Shown one piece after another: positions 45,319 through 55,865 of a stretch of 64,000 nt of DNA. The notes under the pieces are model-generated. The model ran no database searches, had not been told where the DNA came from, and saw only the letters and a program-made list of their open reading frames with translations. The translations under genes and the position numbers were made by a program. Each line of letters starts with the position of its first letter. Positions within the stretch are counted from its first letter, which is position 1. This DNA is from an uncultured Schlesneria sp. (GTDB lineage: Bacteria > Planctomycetota > Planctomycetia > Planctomycetales > Planctomycetaceae): NCBI GenBank assembly GCA_903899985.1, contig CAIULL010000245.1, positions 1 through 64,000 on the forward strand. Reading direction: 5' to 3'.

Positions 45319-46107
45319 ATGTTCAAGACACTCAGGTCATCGCCCCAGTCAGACGAATCACTCATTGACACATCGGCTGAGGTTTCGATCCGGCTCCAGT
45401 TTGAACATCAATCAATCCCCGTCACGCGTGACGGCTTTGCAATCGGCTCGGGTCGCCATTGTGATCTGAAGCTGGGTGAACCCTCGATCCCTTTCCTGCA
45501 CAGCGTGATCCACAATCAGTGTCGCGCCATCTGGATTGAGGCGGCAGACGAAGCGGCAATTTTATCAGTCAATGAACACCCTTGCCGCCGAATGGCGCTT
45601 CGACACGGAGATCGGCTCAAGATTGGCCCGGTAGAATTGGTGGTCGATCTCGGAAATCCATGTGACCACGGCGTGGGTGATTTCGTCAGTAGTGAGCACG
45701 CCATGGATGACTTACATTCGCTCACGGCCGAAGAACTGTGCGATCGAATCACGACGGAACAGGCGATGGTGGAAGAGCTGTCCGACGACGAGCGATCTGG
45801 CTGGGAAGCGCTGCTCCACGCGATTGAAGCAGTTCGGGTCGAGCCAGGGCTTGGTGAGAAAGTCGAAAGCGGGACTCTTCCAATGCCGGAAGAAATCGTC
45901 TCATATGACACACTTTTCGGGCAGATCCGGGAGCTTCACGAGACGATCGTCGACCGGTCGAGAGAACTGGATCAAAAAGAGGCCGAAGTGTTGGCTTCAA
46001 CATCAATCATCGAAGAATCTCAGCAACGGGTCTCGCAAAGACTCGATGAAATCCTCGATCATTTGAACAAGTCGGATGGTCCGACAGAACTGAGGGCGAG
46101 TGCATAG
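45319..46107 (+). CDS. FHA-domain protein with coiled coil
   Basis: A 262-residue cytosolic protein. Residues about 24-110 are a forkhead-associated fold, FAIGSGRHCDLKLGEPSIPFLHSVIHN, with the G-S-R and S..H positions that bind phosphothreonine peptides partly retained. The rest is acidic and helical, ending in a coiled coil (LHETIVDRSRELDQKEAEVLASTSIIEESQQRVSQRLDEILDHL). Likely a phospho-dependent adaptor of the Ser/Thr kinase network. Converges with the GYF protein gene. The ATG at 45319 is the first good start; no strong ribosome site. Confidence 0.8.
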   Translation: MFKTLRSSPQSDESLIDTSAEVSIRLQFEHQSIPVTRDGFAIGSGRHCDLKLGEPSIPFLHSVIHNQCRAIWIEAADEAAILSVNEHPCRRMALRHGDRLKIGPVELVVDLGNPCDHGVGDFVSSEHAMDDLHSLTAEELCDRITTEQAMVEELSDDERSGWEALLHAIEAVRVEPGLGEKVESGTLPMPEEIVSYDTLFGQIRELHETIVDRSRELDQKEAEVLASTSIIEESQQRVSQRLDEILDHLNKSDGPTELRASA

Positions 46108-46244: not shown

Positions 46245-47957
46245 TCAATCGTTTGCAGGCGCTGCATTTGCCGAGGGACGGCGCTTCCTTTGCATTTCTC
46301 TCTGGAACTCTTCGTCCTTCCATTTCCGGAACTCCTTCGAAGATTCCACGAGTGATTTGTATGCGTCTTCCATGTGGATTGACACCTCATCGCTCGTATT
46401 CGATTTGGCAGCCGCTGCCAGACTGTCGCCGAATGCGAGAAGCGAATTACGTATGGGGTGCTTTGAATTCAGATTTCTGATTTTGCGTTTTATGGATTCG
46501 ATCTTATAGACGCTTTCTTTTCTGGCGAAAGCCCACAGCTCCATTGTTTGATTTTCCGACCGTTTTTCCACAAGCGTGCGGTGGATCATGCACAGATCAT
46601 TGTACGGGGCGATAAAATCTTCGACGCCAGCGGTCATCAGGCTTCTCCATGCAAATAACAGTGCAAGAGAGATTCCCACCATCATGATCGTAGTCTTGGC
46701 ATTGATCAGTTGAGGCTCTTTGAATTGACCTCTTCGGAGTTTGTGTTTGCTTTCACCCTGGACAGTGCGGGGCAGTTCGCCGATCTGCTGGTCAGAGGAT
46801 TGATTTGCGTCGAAGTTGACTTCTGTCGCCCGTGGGTTAGGGAGACTCTTTGTTTGAGCATATGCGGATTGTCGATGGGGTTCCGTTGTCGGGCGAGGAC
46901 CATTTATCAACGGAGACTGCACCACCGGCGTCGCCTCCGTTGATCGCGAAGGTCGCGGAGCCGCCGAATTTGAAGTTGGTGGTGCGATCGATGGCCGAGC
47001 AGCCTGCTGTTCGAGCTGAGGAGCCACCGTCATAATTTGCGGAATGGGAATCACATGTGCCGAAAAACCGCCTTTTTTCGAGTAAGTCTGCGGCACAGGA
47101 ATAGTAGGGCGAACCGATCTCAGCGAAAACGTCGGTTCGGCCTGGTTCGATTTGGCGGTCGACGGGAAGAGAACCGGAATTGCGTGTGCTTGTGTCCATT
47201 CTGATTTATCGCTTCGGCGAACTCGATCAATTGGCAAGATGCGCCCGGCTTCAACCATCTCGATCATTTTCTGAAGTTCAATCGGTCCATGCTCGACATG
47301 CCCCATCCGTACGTACCACTGCGAATTCGCCTCGGTGTTATCAGACACAGGCTGATGGTCCGCCACAACAGGTCGATGATCCGCAGCGACAACCTGGTAT
47401 CCCGCTGACATCGGGGCGATCGCTTGCGAGGCATGCTCAGCTGTAACATTTGTCGCTTCTGACAATAAAGGACTGATGGTCTCCGATATTTCAAGCTGAG
47501 GTATCTCTGCCATCAATCGCTCGATTGACCGAACTGGCGTCCATGGGCCGTGCTCCGTGAGAGACAATTCATCGTCAGCTACGAGCTCTCGACGACGAGC
47601 GTAAGAACAGAGCTCCTCAAACTTGTAGGGTCCTCTCCCGATTTGTGATCCGCGGCAGAACCACGGCCCCAGCGTTTTTGTCGATTGACCAGCAACACCA
47701 GCATCCGCTGTTTCGATGTCATCGTGTCCGCCATCCCACGTCAGTGTCGAGTCGGGTGGTTGCTGCACCGGATTCCGATCAGTTAATCGTTGAGCAAATT
47801 GAGCAACAAAATCGTCAACGCGAGTCCAAGTTGTCTCATTCTCAACTCGAACTTCGTGGTGATCGAGTAGCTGACCAGACGCAATTTCATGTTGCAGAAG
47901 ATCGAGTGAGACAGGCCCAAATTTCACTCCGAAAATTCGGTAATAATATTGCGGCAT
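46245..47957 (-). CDS. Triple GYF_2-domain membrane protein
   Basis: A 570-residue protein with three GYF_2-type modules: residues about 3-55 (YYYRIFGVKFGPVSLDLLQHEIASGQL), 98-150 (WFCRGSQIGRGPYKFEELCSYARRREL) and 214-265 (WYVRMGHVEHGPIELQKMIEMVEAGRI). These bind proline-rich peptides. Between the second and third is a short duplicated motif (ADHRPVVADHQPV). A Pro/Ser-rich linker, one membrane segment near 430-450 (TTIMMVGISLALLFAWRSL), and a helical exported or cytosolic tail follow. Role likely a membrane adaptor. It faces the FHA gene, but no direct link is shown. Confidence 0.8.
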   Translation of the reverse strand: MPQYYYRIFGVKFGPVSLDLLQHEIASGQLLDHHEVRVENETTWTRVDDFVAQFAQRLTDRNPVQQPPDSTLTWDGGHDDIETADAGVAGQSTKTLGPWFCRGSQIGRGPYKFEELCSYARRRELVADDELSLTEHGPWTPVRSIERLMAEIPQLEISETISPLLSEATNVTAEHASQAIAPMSAGYQVVAADHRPVVADHQPVSDNTEANSQWYVRMGHVEHGPIELQKMIEMVEAGRILPIDRVRRSDKSEWTQAHAIPVLFPSTAKSNQAEPTFSLRSVRPTIPVPQTYSKKGGFSAHVIPIPQIMTVAPQLEQQAARPSIAPPTSNSAAPRPSRSTEATPVVQSPLINGPRPTTEPHRQSAYAQTKSLPNPRATEVNFDANQSSDQQIGELPRTVQGESKHKLRRGQFKEPQLINAKTTIMMVGISLALLFAWRSLMTAGVEDFIAPYNDLCMIHRTLVEKRSENQTMELWAFARKESVYKIESIKRKIRNLNSKHPIRNSLLAFGDSLAAAAKSNTSDEVSIHMEDAYKSLVESSKEFRKWKDEEFQREMQRKRRPSANAAPAND

Positions 47958-48382: not shown

Positions 48383-49363
48383 ATGGCCATGGAAACCACA
48401 ACTGATCGACAGGAAGCACGGGGTTCTTCTACCAGCCCGACGTTCCTGGTTGTGGACGATTCCCCGATGGATTCATTACTCGCAGGAAAATTGCTTTCGA
48501 AGATCGAGCACTCGAATATCGTCTATGCCAAAAATGGAGCTGAGGCACTTGAACTTGTCGAAAAAACGAAGCCGAACTTGATCCTTACCGATCTCCAGAT
48601 GCCAGAAATGGATGGTTTAGAACTCGTCGAAGCCATTCGCAGGCGGTTTCCATCGATTCCGACGATTCTCATGACCGCAAATGGTAGCGAAGATATCGCC
48701 TTGCGGGCGTTGCGTCGGGGAGCTGCGTCGTATGTTCCCAAGCGAATGCTCTCGACGGAGCTGCTGGAGATTGTTCGACAGATTTCCCAGGTGTCGTGGG
48801 TCGGCGAACAGCAACGTCGGATTTTCGGGTGTTGGGAACGACTTGGGCTTTCATTTCGACTGGAAAACGACAATTCCATTATTCCCCCACTCGTCAGCCA
48901 TCTACAGCAATACCACTCGGGGATTCATGCGTACGATGAAACTGAATCCATCCGGGTCGGTGTTGCGCTGCAAGAAGCCCTTCGAAATGCCATGCACCAC
49001 GGCAATCTGGAATTGAGTTCCGAGATGCGTCGAGAGAATTCAGACTCATATTATCAGGAAGCCGCGAGACGGCAGCATTTACCTCCGTTTGATCGCCGTC
49101 GCGTCATCTTCACTGTCGACGAATCTCCCGACGAATCGTGTTATGTCATTCGTGACGAAGGACCTGGCTTTGATCCTTCCTCGGTCGTAGATCCACTCGA
49201 GGGGGACAACCTCTTGAAGCCCTGCGGGCGAGGACTCTTTCTGATTCGGATGTTCATGAGCGAAGTCCGCTTCAACGAGAAAGGGAATGAAATCACGATG
49301 ATTCATCGTCGTTCCAAAGCCCCTTCCGCTGACACCAGCATAGCCACCACAACGCATCCCTGA
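48383..49363 (+). CDS. Receiver-domain/RsbW-like serine kinase fusion
   Basis: A 326-residue protein fusing two signalling modules. Residues 20-135 are a receiver domain with Asp25-Asp26, phospho-acceptor Asp70 (LTDLQMP), Thr98 and Lys120. Residues 190-315 are a GHKL ATPase of the anti-sigma (RsbW/SpoIIAB) type with an N-box (EALRNAMHHGN, Asn202), G1 box (RDEGPGFD) and G2 box (GRGLFLIRM). No DNA-binding or histidine-kinase dimerisation domain. It probably switches kinase or sequestering activity on phosphorylation and acts on the STAS protein encoded 63 bases downstream. The ATG at 48383 starts it. Confidence 0.88.
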   Translation: MAMETTTDRQEARGSSTSPTFLVVDDSPMDSLLAGKLLSKIEHSNIVYAKNGAEALELVEKTKPNLILTDLQMPEMDGLELVEAIRRRFPSIPTILMTANGSEDIALRALRRGAASYVPKRMLSTELLEIVRQISQVSWVGEQQRRIFGCWERLGLSFRLENDNSIIPPLVSHLQQYHSGIHAYDETESIRVGVALQEALRNAMHHGNLELSSEMRRENSDSYYQEAARRQHLPPFDRRRVIFTVDESPDESCYVIRDEGPGFDPSSVVDPLEGDNLLKPCGRGLFLIRMFMSEVRFNEKGNEITMIHRRSKAPSADTSIATTTHP

Positions 49364-49426
49364 TAAATCATTTTTGTCGAGCGATAGATTTACCATTGAG
49401 AAATTGTTTACCCGAGGAATCGACTG

Positions 49427-49810
49427 ATGAACCCTGTCCAGATTCAAATGTTGCTAGGCCAAGGGGACATCGTCGTTCTGGAACTTCACGGACGACTGTC
49501 CCGCGATGAATGGATGGACAACCGCGACCCGATTGCAAGCGCCTGTGGAGACGACATCTTTTCTCGAAAGGTAATGTTGAGTCTGGCGAATGCGAATTAT
49601 CTCGATTCGACCGGCGTGGAATGGCTGCTTGTCAGCGATCAAAAATTCAATGACGCAGGGGGAAAACTGGTTTTGCATTCCGCTTCGCGGACGACCTCTG
49701 ATTTCCTCAAAATGATGCGGATGCATCTCGTGTTAGACCTGGTTCCGGACGAAGCGACCGCACGAGCAAGACTGATGAACTACAGCAACGGAAGCCCAAA
49801 AAATGCTTAG
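49427..49810 (+). CDS. STAS-domain anti-sigma factor antagonist
   Basis: A 127-residue single STAS domain like SpoIIAA/RsbV. The phosphorylatable Ser61 sits in NYLDSTGVEWLL, the classic switch. N- and C-terminal strands match the family (VVLELHGRL, KLVLHSASRTTSDFLKMM). It should be the substrate of the RsbW-like domain in the gene before it, so the two form a partner-switching pair. The following GspE-like gene overlaps it by eight bases (49803-49810), implying co-translation and a functional link. No sigma factor gene is nearby, so the target is unknown. Confidence 0.9.
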   Translation: MNPVQIQMLLGQGDIVVLELHGRLSRDEWMDNRDPIASACGDDIFSRKVMLSLANANYLDSTGVEWLLVSDQKFNDAGGKLVLHSASRTTSDFLKMMRMHLVLDLVPDEATARARLMNYSNGSPKNA

Positions 49811-51092
49811 ATCCACTTTGCCGGAAACGACTGACGAGCATGATTCCACCGCCGAGGGCGGTCGAAATTTTCTGCTGGATGTCGAAGAGTTCCCTGATCA
49901 GCCGATCGAACAAAGTGTCGCCGAACTGATCGAGCATGCCGTCAGCCTTGGTGCAAGCGACCTGTTTATTTGTTGCAACGAAGACGATGTCGATGTCACA
50001 GTTCGGCATCTTGGCATTATCCGCTACGTCGCGAGTCTCGATGCGGACACAGGGAATCGGTGTATCGCTCATACACGTGCCGCAGCGGGAATGAAATTTG
50101 CCGACCGCAGACATCCGCAAGATGGCCGCTGGACATTCCGCAACAGGAATGGACGCGTCACAAATCTGCGATTGAGTTCCATTCCTTCGATGCACGGCGA
50201 AAGCTTCGCCATGCGGTTACTGGAACGAGACTCACCGCTTACAAATATCGACTCCCTGGGTCTCGTCGGCCCACAGACGGAAATTATGCGTTCATTGCTG
50301 GGGAACTCCAGCGGACTGGTCATCGTCTCTGGCCCAACAGGTTCCGGCAAAACAACGACCATGTACGCCTGCATGCACCACCTCAACGATGGGCGGCGCA
50401 AGATTCACACGATTGAAGACCCGATTGAGTATGGCGTCAGAGGGCTTCGACAATCGGAAGCGGACGAAGTTAACGGACCAAAGTTTAGTGAACTGCTCCG
50501 CGGCGTCGTTCGTCAAAGCCCGGACGTGATTATGGTCGGTGAGATCCGCGATTCAGTGACCGCCGAGACGGCAGTTCTGGCGGCAAACAGTGGCCAGCTA
50601 GTGTTTGTAACACTGCATGCCTCAATTGCAGCCTCCGCCATTCACAGCATGCTGTCGCTGGGCGTGCCCCCGTACTTCCTCTGTACGTCTTTGCTTGCCG
50701 TCATCAGCCAGCGACTTGTGCGAACACTCCATCCCGAGAAAAAGATTCGCCTGAATCTCACTCACGCGCCTCGCACATTCGATGAAGTCCGTCCTTATCT
50801 GCATGGCGAAGAAGGGAATTACATCTATGCGGCTGATTCCAGCCAGGGAGACGAAGGATTCGTTGGTCGCACCGGATTGTTTGAAGTCATGCCGATGTCT
50901 CCTGCAATCCGCACGATGGTCAGCCAGATAGCCCCGGCAAACGTGATTCATCAGCGGGCACTGGACGAAGGAATGATCGACTTCCGTCGAGCGGCTTTGC
51001 TGAAGGTCGCACAGGGTGTGACCAGCTTTGAAGAATTACTGCGAGTGCTTCCGTCGGCCGAATTCTGGGGCGAATTCATGGAAGCCATTTGA
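49803..51092 (+). CDS. GspE/PilB-type secretion ATPase
   Basis: A 429-residue ATPase of type II secretion/type IV pilus machines. Walker A is GPTGSGKTT (about 177-185), the Asp box is HTIEDPIEY, Walker B is DVIMVGEIRD and the His box is VFVTLHAS. The first 150 residues are a short N2-like domain; the long N1 domain is absent, so it is shorter than usual PilB. The four-Cys zinc finger found in most PilB/GspE is missing: the region after RLVRTLHPEKK has no CxxC. Overlap with the STAS gene suggests its action is under partner-switch control. No other pilus gene is in the window. Confidence 0.9.
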   Translation: MLRSTLPETTDEHDSTAEGGRNFLLDVEEFPDQPIEQSVAELIEHAVSLGASDLFICCNEDDVDVTVRHLGIIRYVASLDADTGNRCIAHTRAAAGMKFADRRHPQDGRWTFRNRNGRVTNLRLSSIPSMHGESFAMRLLERDSPLTNIDSLGLVGPQTEIMRSLLGNSSGLVIVSGPTGSGKTTTMYACMHHLNDGRRKIHTIEDPIEYGVRGLRQSEADEVNGPKFSELLRGVVRQSPDVIMVGEIRDSVTAETAVLAANSGQLVFVTLHASIAASAIHSMLSLGVPPYFLCTSLLAVISQRLVRTLHPEKKIRLNLTHAPRTFDEVRPYLHGEEGNYIYAADSSQGDEGFVGRTGLFEVMPMSPAIRTMVSQIAPANVIHQRALDEGMIDFRRAALLKVAQGVTSFEELLRVLPSAEFWGEFMEAI

Positions 51093-51447
51093 CGAGTTCC
51101 TTACGACTAATCACTGAGATTAAAGCGACAACTCGTTGTCCCTGCCGATCGCAAGAACAAGGCGATCGGCAACGGCCGCGTGCGACCAGCAATCAGTACC
51201 CATCGAAAAAGGTGAGTCGTGACAGGCTCTTCGGCTCGTCACATCAGTTATCAATCAGATTCAATTCTCTCTAGAATCCGATTGCCGGAACTCGATCACC
51301 GGTTGGGATCAATGATCGATGACTTCGAGACGCGACGTCGATTGTAAAGACGAGCACGAGCGCCCTCCTATTGTTGGAAGGAATTTCAAAGCGCCTGCAT
51401 GGTTTTACGGCGTCACATTTCAGGGAAAATCCCTCGCACAATTCATT

Positions 51448-51545
51448 AACTGTCGGAGCAACGTCAAGAAATCGAGGCGGCTCGGAAAGGATTTCGTAAT
51501 TGCAGAAAAGGATTCCTTGTACCACGGGATGACATTTCTGGCCCG
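51448..51545 (-). pseudogene. Inverted broken copy of the downstream phosphatase-like gene's 3' end
   Basis: The minus strand here reads GQKCHPVVQGILFCNYEILSEPPRFLDVAPTV, matching GDHCVDPSVVPGVLFCNHEILTESSRLLDIAPTI near the C-terminus of the protein encoded at 51703-53832. The 78 bases 51448-51525 agree with 53629-53706 of that gene at 66 positions by hand count. The piece is inverted and lacks two codons; beyond it similarity is lost. It lies within a 610-base gap (51093-51702) otherwise empty of recognised genes. Confidence 0.7.
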
Positions 51546-51702
51546 GTGAACCCCTCGTTTGCGAGCAGGGCTTCTGCTTATAATAGGCCCTCGGCAATCT
51601 CTTCGTACAGAAACGATGCGTGGCGACGACAGTCGATGTTAACATTAAATAGTCCCTCTGATGTGCAGGATGAGCAAAAATCCTGGCAAGAATTTCTCTT
51701 AA

Positions 51703-53832
51703 ATGACGATTCATACGGTTGACCAACTGATCGACAATATGAGCTTGGCATATATCGGTCCGGGCGCGGGTTTTGCGTTGGCAGGTACTTTCCTGGCTGT
51801 GTTTGGTGCCATCTTCTCTGCGCTTACAATGTTCTTGTTTTGGCCGATTCGTCGTTTGATGCGATTGATCCTTAAGCGGCATCCCCCCCGAAAACCTCGG
51901 TTCAAACGTGTCGTGATACTGGGACTTGATGGACTCGATCATAGTCTGACAACTCGTTTGCTTGACGAAGGAAAACTGCCAAATCTGGCAGCGTTGCGAA
52001 GTCAGGGGAGCTTTCACTCACTGGGAAGCACGCTCCCTCCGATTTCGCCTGTGGCATGGTCAACGTTTCAAACAGGGGTGAACCCAGGCAAACACAATAT
52101 TTTTGACTTTCTTTCACCCGACGAAAAAACCTATCAGCCAAAGCTCAGCTCAGTTGAAATCCTTTCAGCGGCTCGTCGTCGCAGCGTCTGGCCATTCAAC
52201 ATGACGATTAAACGGCCAGAAATACGCATGCTGCGAAAAAGTCAGCCCTTCTGGAGCATCCTGAGCAAGTACGGCATCTTCAATTGCATTATCCGAGTGC
52301 CAATCACGTTCCCCCCTGAAAAACTGCATGGGGTCCAGTTATCGGCGATGTGTGTTCCTGATTTGCGTGGCACTCAGGGAACTTTTTCGCAATATACGAC
52401 GCGCCCTAAAGTTGGAAATCAAAAAACGGGGGGTGACGTCCACTACGTTCAGCAGACTGGAAATGTCATCGTCGGCCATCTGGTTGGTCCTCCGCATCCA
52501 ACACACACCGATCAAGGGCATCTCAAGCAGCATTTTACCGTGACCTTTGATGATCGTGACCAGGCGACGCTCGCCATTGACGGGGCGAAATTCAAGTTAA
52601 TACCGGGCGAATACACCGACTGGATTTCGGTCAAGTTTCGCGCGGGCTGGAATCTGTCGATTCAAGGAGTCTGTCGGTTCCTGCTTTTGAGTACTCAACC
52701 CATATTCGACCTGTATGTCACTCCGATCAACATCGACCCTGAATATCCCGCGATGGCAATTGGTTACCCTCCGGTCTATCCGATTTATCTCGCGAAACGT
52801 CAGGGGCCCTACGCAACACTCGGGCTGGCCGAAGATACGTGGGGTCTGAACGAAGAAGTTCTAAACGACGAACATTTCCTTCAGCAATGCACTGACATCG
52901 ATCAAGAGCGTGAATTGATGTTCTTCGACAGCCTCGACAAAGTGCCGACGGGACTGTGTGTCTGTGTGTTTGACGGAACAGATCGAATGCAGCACATGTT
53001 CTGGCGATATCTGGACAAAGAACATCCCGCCCGTCCGTTACATATTCCGGCGACGTTCGAGACGGCCATTGAAGATCTTTACGTTCGCATGGACGAACTC
53101 GTCGGACGTACGATGGCCAAATGCCATGATAAAGATAACGTGCTGATGGTCCTTTCGGATCATGGTTTTAATACATTTCGTCGCGGAATTGACCTGAATC
53201 GATGGCTCGAAGAAAACGGATTCCTTGTCGTCAACGAGGAACTCCGCGACAAGGACTACCTCGCCGGAATCGACTGGACAAAAACAAAAGCATTCGCAAT
53301 TGGCCTGACAGGGATCTTTATCAACTTGCGAGGCAAGTTCAGTCAGGGAATCGTTGAGCCTGGCATCGAAGCAGACACAATTCGTGATCAGATCGCGTCT
53401 CAGCTAGGTCAACTCATCGACCCTCAGTCGGGCTCGCAAGCCATTAAGCGCGTGTATCAGGCGACCAAAGTCTATCGCGGTCCCTATAAAGAAAATGCTC
53501 CTGACCTGATTGTCGGCTACGCCAGCGGTTATCGCGTATCGTGGGATGCGGCTGTTGGCCGTTCCAGCCAACAGATATTTCATGACAATCGGAAGGCCTG
53601 GAGCGGCGATCATTGCGTCGATCCGTCGGTGGTACCAGGCGTCCTTTTCTGTAATCACGAAATCCTTACCGAGTCGTCTCGATTGCTTGACATTGCTCCG
53701 ACCATTCTCGATCTGTTTGGCTGCCCGATTCCCGAATATATGGATGGAAAAGTGCTCTCCGTTGGTTCGCGTCAAACGGGTGAGCTTATTCCTAAGGACG
53801 ACTTAGTTCTCGCAGGAGGTGGGGTCCAATGA
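51703..53832 (+). CDS. Membrane-anchored alkaline-phosphatase-superfamily enzyme
   Basis: A 709-residue protein with an N-terminal membrane segment (AYIGPGAGFALAGTFLAVFGAIF, from residue 16) followed by a type I phosphodiesterase/nucleotide pyrophosphatase-like domain. Metal ligand Asp76 lies in LGLDGLDHS, a nucleophile Ser115 in PPISPVAWSTFQTGVNPGKHNIFDF, and VLSDHGFNTF supplies further Asp and His ligands. A beta-rich insertion lies at about 190-340. It probably cleaves or transfers phospho- or sulfo-esters outside the cytosol. The ATG at 51739 (MSLAYIGPG) is a likely alternative start. Its stop overlaps the next gene by ATGA, so the two are coupled. Confidence 0.88.
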   Translation: MTIHTVDQLIDNMSLAYIGPGAGFALAGTFLAVFGAIFSALTMFLFWPIRRLMRLILKRHPPRKPRFKRVVILGLDGLDHSLTTRLLDEGKLPNLAALRSQGSFHSLGSTLPPISPVAWSTFQTGVNPGKHNIFDFLSPDEKTYQPKLSSVEILSAARRRSVWPFNMTIKRPEIRMLRKSQPFWSILSKYGIFNCIIRVPITFPPEKLHGVQLSAMCVPDLRGTQGTFSQYTTRPKVGNQKTGGDVHYVQQTGNVIVGHLVGPPHPTHTDQGHLKQHFTVTFDDRDQATLAIDGAKFKLIPGEYTDWISVKFRAGWNLSIQGVCRFLLLSTQPIFDLYVTPINIDPEYPAMAIGYPPVYPIYLAKRQGPYATLGLAEDTWGLNEEVLNDEHFLQQCTDIDQERELMFFDSLDKVPTGLCVCVFDGTDRMQHMFWRYLDKEHPARPLHIPATFETAIEDLYVRMDELVGRTMAKCHDKDNVLMVLSDHGFNTFRRGIDLNRWLEENGFLVVNEELRDKDYLAGIDWTKTKAFAIGLTGIFINLRGKFSQGIVEPGIEADTIRDQIASQLGQLIDPQSGSQAIKRVYQATKVYRGPYKENAPDLIVGYASGYRVSWDAAVGRSSQQIFHDNRKAWSGDHCVDPSVVPGVLFCNHEILTESSRLLDIAPTILDLFGCPIPEYMDGKVLSVGSRQTGELIPKDDLVLAGGGVQ

Positions 53833-55865
53833 ATTCAGGACGTAAACCCAAAATCTCCCGTAGAAAAATCCTGTCGGGTGCTGCTGCCAGCGCGGGGGCA
53901 TTAGCGACAGCATGCTGGCTCGGTGGTTGCAATCGAGCGTCGCGATCTTTGGGTAAGAAAGTCATCGTCATCGGCATTGACGGGATGGACCCTCGGCTTT
54001 GTCGCAGCATGATGCTGGCCGGAATGCTCCCCAATCTGGCGAAGCTGGCATCCGCCGGCAGCTTCAGCAATCTGGCGACAAGCATGCCGCCTCAAAGTCC
54101 CGTGGCTTGGGCCAGTTTTATCAACGGTGCAGGACCGGGATCGCACGGGATTTTTGACTTTATCCACCGACATCCTCACCAACAGTGTGCACCCTTTTTT
54201 TCCGCGGCTGAGACGCTTCCCGGCGAAGGCTCAATCGAAGTCGGTGATCATCGGCTTCAGTTCAATTTTCCTCCGTTCAGTCACACGCTACCGAAAACCG
54301 TATTGCGGAGGCAGGGGATTCCATTTTGGGATGAATTGGATGCCAAAGGAATCCCCTCCACATTTTACGATCTTCCGTCGAACTATCCCCCAAGCCCATC
54401 GCACTATGGACATCATCGCTGCATTTCGGGAATGGGGACACCAGATGTTCTGGGGACATACGGAACCTATCAATATTTCAGCGACGATTCGCCGTCAAAA
54501 GGTCTGGAGGAAGGGGGTGGACGAAGATCAAAGCTACGCTTCATTCGCGATTCAGCAAAAACCAAAATCGTCGGCCCCGATAACGCGATGTTGAAAACGC
54601 CGACGCCGACAACGATCGAAATGTCCGTCCATCGCGATCGAAGGTCGGATGCAGCACTGCTCATTGTTGGCGATCACAAAATCATGCTGAGGGCAGGGGA
54701 GTGGAGCGGATGGACGCGGCTCGATTTTAAGATGTCAACGCCACCCCCGCTTCCGAGTCAGTCAGCGAGTGGGATCTGTCGTTTTTATCTTCAAGAGGTT
54801 GCTCCGAACTTTCGTCTTTACATGACCCCCATCAATATCGATCCGTCGAAACCTGCGGTGCAATTATCTGAGCCGAAGAATTTTATCACGGACATTTCGA
54901 ATGCCCTTGGCCTGTTCTATACGACGGGGTTTCAAGAGGATCATAAGGCTCGATCGAATGGCATTTTCAACGACGACGAATTTCGGCAGCAGGCCACGAT
55001 GGTCCTGGAGGAACGACTGACTCTTTTCGAATATGCTCTTAAGAATTACGAAGACGGACTATTGTTCTTTTATTTCTCAAGCAGCGATCTGCAGTCACAT
55101 ATGTTCTGGTGGAATTCTGACGAGGATGCGCTACATCCCACCCGGACCACGCCAGAAGCAGCCAGTCGATTTCAATATGTCAAAGACCTTTACCAAAAGC
55201 TCGACGGAATCATCGGCGATCTCGACCAGCGCTATGGCAGCAAGGCAACTCTGTTTGTGATGAGCGATCATGGCTTCGCCAACTTCGGCAGGCAATTCAA
55301 TGTCAATTCCTGGCTGCGTGATTCTGGCTATTTAAATCCACGGGAAACCACGTCGGTCCTCACCGATGTCGACTGGTCCCGAACACGCGCGTATGGAATG
55401 GGGATCAACGCACTCTATCTGAATCTCAAGGGACGCGAACGGGACGGTATTGTCGAACCCGACGACACTGCCGAGAAGCTGACAAAGCAATTAATTGCAC
55501 AGTTGGAAGCGGTTCGCGATATCAACGGACAACAGGTCATTCGCAAGGTCTACAGGTCGAGTGAAATCTATTCCGGACCAGCGATGGAATTTGCTCCCGA
55601 TTTGATTATCGGCTACTCCCGTGGCTACCGCGCCTCGTGGGAAACGTGTCTTGGCGAATTGACTCCCGAAGTGCTGCTGGACAACCCATCCCCTTGGAGT
55701 GCCGATCATTGTGCGGACGCACTGGAGGTTCCTGGCGTCTTGTTTAGTAACAAGAGTATTCGATCACCCCAGCCATCGCTGACTGATCTGGCGCCATCGA
55801 TACTCGATGAATTTGGCCTACCAACACCGAAGACGATGACGGGAAAAAGTATCTTTCAATCCTGA
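53829..55865 (+). CDS. Tat-exported alkaline-phosphatase-superfamily lipoprotein
   Basis: A 678-residue paralogue of the preceding enzyme. A twin-arginine signal (SRRKILSGAAASAGALATACWLGGC) with lipobox Cys34 suggests Tat export and lipid anchoring. Asp51 (GIDGMDPRL), PPQSPVAWASFINGAGPGSHGIFDF and VMSDHGFANFG repeat the active-site pattern. The two differ in topology (membrane helix versus lipoprotein), so they probably work side by side at the membrane on related substrates. It overlaps the upstream stop by ATGA and is followed after 15 bases by a small RHH-like gene. Confidence 0.9.
   Translation: MNSGRKPKISRRKILSGAAASAGALATACWLGGCNRASRSLGKKVIVIGIDGMDPRLCRSMMLAGMLPNLAKLASAGSFSNLATSMPPQSPVAWASFINGAGPGSHGIFDFIHRHPHQQCAPFFSAAETLPGEGSIEVGDHRLQFNFPPFSHTLPKTVLRRQGIPFWDELDAKGIPSTFYDLPSNYPPSPSHYGHHRCISGMGTPDVLGTYGTYQYFSDDSPSKGLEEGGGRRSKLRFIRDSAKTKIVGPDNAMLKTPTPTTIEMSVHRDRRSDAALLIVGDHKIMLRAGEWSGWTRLDFKMSTPPPLPSQSASGICRFYLQEVAPNFRLYMTPINIDPSKPAVQLSEPKNFITDISNALGLFYTTGFQEDHKARSNGIFNDDEFRQQATMVLEERLTLFEYALKNYEDGLLFFYFSSSDLQSHMFWWNSDEDALHPTRTTPEAASRFQYVKDLYQKLDGIIGDLDQRYGSKATLFVMSDHGFANFGRQFNVNSWLRDSGYLNPRETTSVLTDVDWSRTRAYGMGINALYLNLKGRERDGIVEPDDTAEKLTKQLIAQLEAVRDINGQQVIRKVYRSSEIYSGPAMEFAPDLIIGYSRGYRASWETCLGELTPEVLLDNPSPWSADHCADALEVPGVLFSNKSIRSPQPSLTDLAPSILDEFGLPTPKTMTGKSIFQS

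Follow-up and report, generated by a model that had tools for sequence, protein, structure and literature searches.

Partner switches are best known as regulators of sigma factors, with diguanylate cyclases as their targets in a few cases. Three consecutive genes of an uncultured Schlesneria sp. (family Planctomycetaceae) raise the question of whether such a switch could be dedicated to a motor ATPase. The genes lie in a stretch of 64 000 nucleotides (contig CAIULL010000245.1), referred to here as the window. A REC-RsbW-like kinase, a STAS protein and an overlapping ATPase had been named in a preliminary description made from the DNA sequence; all three reading frames were borne out at their positions, in agreement with Pfam (Table 1). 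No sigma-factor gene lies within the three-gene unit.

Table 1. Features of the three-gene unit and its surroundings (window positions).
Feature	Position	Strand	Remarks
FHA-domain protein gene	45319-46107		Just upstream of unit
Repeated-GYF_2-domain protein gene	46245-47957		Strand opposite to FHA gene; just upstream of unit
REC-RsbW-type kinase gene	48383..49363	+	326 aa; Pfam, motifs, same-position orthologues in L028, L091, L115, L116
Receiver domain of kinase	about 48446-48775	+	Pfam Response_reg
HATPase_c_2 domain of kinase	about 48929-49303	+	Pfam
STAS gene	49427..49810	+	127 aa; anti-anti-sigma type; DSTG phosphosite, Trp66; Pfam STAS
Ser61 codon, predicted phospho-acceptor	49607..49609	+	Aligned with STAS phosphoserine position
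Trp66 codon, signature of ATPase-linked STAS subfamily	49622..49624	+	Alignment comparison
STAS stop/ATPase start overlap, 8 bp	49803..49810	+	ATGCTTAG; sequence
Short GspE/PilB-type ATPase gene	49803..51092	+	429 aa; N2 and catalytic domain only; Pfam T2SSE
Walker A of ATPase	50331-50354	+	Motif columns
Walker B Glu (Glu247) of ATPase	50541-50543	+	Motif columns
His-box His (His272) of ATPase	50616-50618	+	Motif columns
Antisense ORF	51274-52017	-	Contains a 29-aa stretch 62% identical to C-terminus of adjacent phosphodiesterase-family protein
Type I phosphodiesterase/nucleotide pyrophosphatase family genes	51703-53832, 53829-55865		Tandem, overlapping; downstream of unit

The kinase and STAS genes are separated by 63 bp, and the overlap of the STAS and ATPase genes is consistent with translational coupling of the two. 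The unit is isolated, with a divergent gene (that of the GYF-domain protein) upstream and about 610 bp to the start of the next downstream gene. Promoter and terminator scans gave no more matches than expected by chance, and no phosphatase or histidine kinase gene was seen adjoining it in the window. The closest named relative, also an uncultured Schlesneria of the Planctomycetaceae, has the same gene order and an ATPase that is 95% identical. The antisense ORF downstream may be what is left of a partial, inverted copy of the phosphodiesterase-family gene.

The catalytic motifs of the receiver, the kinase and the ATPase are all intact. The kinase gene product matches Response_reg (E = 2e-25) and HATPase_c_2 (E = 1e-18); the expected receiver residues are present (DD, TDLQMPEMDG, T and K), as are the N (QEALRNAMHHG), G1 (RDEGPGFD) and G2 (GRGLFLI) boxes that characterize Ser/Thr kinases of the RsbW/SpoIIAB type. 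The STAS protein matches Pfam STAS (E = 1e-6), and its family profile matched TM1442/SpoIIAA when compared with known structures (best E = 3e-14). The phosphosite, D60-S61-T-G, contains the phosphorylatable residue, Ser61, that is expected of the STAS antagonist in a partner switch.

The ATPase matches T2SSE over residues 32–414 (E = 4e-88), and its AlphaFold (AF2) model (pLDDT 85) matched the PilB/PilF core, with PilF (5oiu) and PilB (5it5/5tsh) as the best fold matches. It retains Walker A, the Walker B Glu247, the His-box His272 and Arg123/Arg138, which we take to be the arginine fingers from what is known of the family; the T2SSE fold and the motifs of a GspE/PilB-type ATPase are thus all in place. 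It had been described beforehand as having neither a zinc finger nor an N1 domain, and this holds: the T2SSE match begins at residue 32, only some 30 mostly disordered residues precede N2, and the cysteines of the zinc finger are replaced by H310/K313 and S/G, so that the tetracysteine motif is absent. The curated NCBIfam cut-offs were not reached for either GspE (320 bits versus 630) or PilB (313 versus 676). The protein resembles PilB, PilF and GspE (5oiu, 5tsh and 4ksr) in its N2 and catalytic domains, Walker A/B motifs, His box and two arginines, but differs from them in having no N1 domain, zinc finger or neighbouring platform or pilin genes, and in belonging to a separate clade.

This clade, defined in a tree of 57 ATPases, contains proteins that lack N1 and stands apart from all conventional PilBs (support 100/99); the ATPases found in the same three-gene order form one subclade within it (100/99). 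As judged from the alignments, loss of N1 is clade-wide and loss of the zinc finger is partial, being derived in the three-gene subclade and in one other lineage. The cysteines are missing in the window, L028, L091, L115 and L116 as well as in the L029/L030 lineage, and are kept in other members (for example L041, L092, L095, L113, L114 and L042); the loss has probably been repeated. In two three-gene loci (G342 and G542) the ATPase has Asn where the His-box His would be, so that normal motor function need not hold for every three-gene ATPase.

Genome searches at the level of phylum, family and class placed the clade in 46 of 397 genomes sampled from the class, representing 26 of 185 genera. 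Of the 53 distinct loci of the clade, 48 have a STAS gene directly upstream of the ATPase gene, whereas not one of about 95 full-length PilB controls does (0/95); when shared ancestry is ignored, this contrast has a Fisher p of about 1e-33. The counts were tallied by hand over distinct loci, with phylogeny not taken into account, and two of the 48 pair loci (L120 and L121), taken from another collection, could be duplicates of other loci. The controls included essentially full-length PilB-type matches that ranked below the best five when contigs were scanned with the ATPase alignment. Given these counts and a background of 12 STAS genes in a genome of 8 Mb, the neighbourhood of the two genes is, on comparative grounds, more than chance. 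A second clade member in the same genome (contig C164, 44% identical) also directly follows a STAS gene, and the clade members with no adjacent STAS gene are G015, L118, L119, G054 and G669. Unrelated neighbours of the ATPase in relatives, which the preliminary description had named as evidence against its proposal, are thus not what is found. Across families the STAS gene stays with the ATPase while other neighbours vary. The three-gene order that the same description had suggested seeking in other planctomycetes does recur, in four genera in all (Schlesneria, with the window and L028/L117; G342; G474; G542), but most loci have only the STAS and ATPase genes; the conserved core, as far as gene order can tell, is the pair and not the three-gene set.

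Long ATPase frames in L033, L037 and L094 were considered as natural STAS–ATPase fusions and rejected, the STAS gene being overlapped in another frame; no fusion was found. A short planctomycete ATPase outside the main clade (G371; L088, 6803-8499) also lies just after a STAS gene, which suggests that the pairing arose independently a second time. A limited search of the open-access literature found no description of a STAS protein paired with GspE, PilB or a pilus ATPase.

The STAS proteins that accompany the ATPase were compared with one another and with ten other STAS proteins of Schlesneria. A Trp five residues past the phospho position occurs in 46 of 48 distinct pairs and in none of the ten others, and Ser or Thr occupies the phospho position in all of the aligned ATPase-linked proteins, even where neighbouring positions vary by lineage. 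This is what a distinct subfamily would look like, with the pattern expected of adaptation to one partner. Conservation of the Ser/Thr is not in itself proof of phosphorylation, nor is specialization proof of contact.

The kinase is less constant. In most genomes with the pair the kinase gene is not adjacent; it lies beside the pair only in the subclade, and elsewhere it must therefore act in trans or not at all. In G466 it is divergent relative to the pair, and in G492 some 3 kb separate it from the pair, and its neighbour is a hybrid histidine kinase gene. REC-RsbW kinases are frequent in the genomes of relatives, often in several copies, and a homologue is present in 14 of 14 relatives with the pair versus 34 of 45 without it, a weak association (p = 0.04) that ignores kinship. 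The kinase tree is poorly resolved: most pair-linked kinases cluster (94/94), but together with an unlinked kinase (that of G040), and the L113 kinase is placed elsewhere, outside the main linked group. In two Schlesneria loci (L079 and L081) a REC-RsbW kinase gene is flanked by a large hybrid histidine kinase gene and by a STAS gene whose motif is of the GSS type, and the ATPase is absent; this is apparently a separate module running from a phosphorelay to a partner switch.

The fullest arrangement is that of G342, in which the genes for the kinase, the STAS protein, the ATPase and an FHA/GAF/SpoIIE phosphatase are consecutive, overlapping and on the same strand, the annotated start of the phosphatase gene overlapping the end of the ATPase gene. 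Judged by its predicted gene products, no component of a partner switch is missing from this operon, and the ATPase occupies the position otherwise taken by a sigma factor or cyclase. A SpoIIE/PP2C phosphatase is found in cis only in G342; the window genome has seven SpoIIE matches elsewhere, none of them on the window contig.

Since the ATPase is regularly accompanied by the STAS protein but not by the kinase, the STAS protein is most likely the direct regulator. The best reading of these comparisons is that it would be a dedicated, phosphorylation-controlled regulator of the ATPase, and we hold with moderate confidence that the locus is a partner-switch module with a motor ATPase as its dedicated target. 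Acting directly, the STAS protein would most likely parallel SiaC on SiaD and MlaB on MlaF. In the SiaABCD operon of Pseudomonas aeruginosa, which encodes a PP2C phosphatase, a kinase, a STAS-type protein and a diguanylate cyclase, SiaC acts on the cyclase SiaD (PMC7647112). Kinase, phosphatase, switch protein and enzyme target there share one operon without a sigma factor, and these four kinds of part are all present in G342 as well; in the planctomycetes, however, the target would be a GspE/PilB-type ATPase rather than a diguanylate cyclase, and the kinase has a receiver domain. In Vibrio fischeri the RsbW-like serine kinase SypE controls the STAS protein SypA through a conserved Ser, the output being either unknown or other than a sigma factor (PMC8256260). 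An RsbW-like serine kinase and a STAS protein with a conserved Ser are likewise seen here, at the level of genes, but SypE is both kinase and phosphatase, and SypA has no paired ATPase and its target is unknown. SypE also has a receiver domain. For Synechocystis, a paper cited in PMC9239167 reports an interaction of PixE, a CheY-like protein, with the motor ATPase PilB1, which gives receiver-linked control of a pilus motor a precedent.

In MlaB–MlaF a STAS protein is bound to, and needed by, the ABC ATPase MlaF (PMC7367683). The planctomycete pair would be alike in joining a STAS protein to an ATPase, through a predicted binding; MlaF is, however, an ABC ATPase and not a hexameric secretion ATPase, and the abstract of that study mentions no dedicated kinase. 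A constitutive subunit of the MlaB kind, in which the STAS protein is a structural or stabilizing partner of the ATPase, phosphorylation is irrelevant or ancestral and the adjoining kinase controls something else, would agree with the pair without a kinase being the common state. We nevertheless consider it unlikely, since the kinase has joined the pair in several arrangements and genera, in G342 together with a phosphatase, and since the Ser/Thr of the phosphosite never varies even where its neighbours do. The classical logic, with the RsbW-like kinase binding and inhibiting the ATPase like a sigma factor until unphosphorylated STAS protein releases it, would suit a locus whose parts and order are those of an Rsb module in which the ATPase replaces the sigma factor, but the many loci that have the STAS and ATPase genes without a kinase make the STAS protein the likelier direct partner and this logic improbable. 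Co-transcription without contact, with the ATPase merely co-expressed and the target of the STAS protein and kinase, be it a sigma factor or something else, lying elsewhere, has a parallel in the Schlesneria kinase–STAS pairs downstream of hybrid histidine kinases but deserves equally little credence, as the STAS gene remains with the ATPase across families and the ATPase-linked protein belongs to a different subfamily from that of those pairs.

If the module is a partner switch dedicated to the ATPase, a histidine-kinase phosphorelay would feed the receiver domain of the REC-RsbW kinase, which would phosphorylate Ser61 of the STAS protein depending on the state of the receiver. A SpoIIE/PP2C phosphatase would reverse this, in cis in G342 and in trans in the window organism. 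The phosphorylation state would then decide whether the STAS protein binds the short ATPase, and through this its activity, assembly or stability, with the STAS protein in trans standing in for the N1 regulatory/docking domain that the ATPase lacks. The STAS–ATPase binding, the phosphorylation, the sign of the effect and the driving of a type IV-like filament by the ATPase are what we infer. The proposal as a whole, that the circuit gates a secretion- or pilus-type motor ATPase through direct STAS binding, with the STAS protein replacing N1 in trans, that its conservation extends across the class Planctomycetia and that it has not been described before, is put forward tentatively, at a little under even confidence.

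The preliminary description had envisaged partner-switch control of a pilus or secretion motor. Comparative genomics upholds the module beside the ATPase, without a sigma factor; on the side of the motor, the pilus genes that were expected to pair with the ATPase did not appear, there being no platform gene (T2SSF; PilC/GspF) on the window contig or on that of the second copy and no pilus or pilin genes near the ATPase. Several PilC/GspF-like proteins are encoded on other contigs of the genome, so a platform could be borrowed.

If true, a conserved pair of STAS protein and motor ATPase would extend partner switches to a mechanical output and would link two-component signalling to a pilus or secretion motor in a way that can be tested. 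For planctomycetes it would also give a way into the study of their orphan, functionally unassigned GspE/PilB-like ATPases, whose genes sit away from pilus gene clusters.
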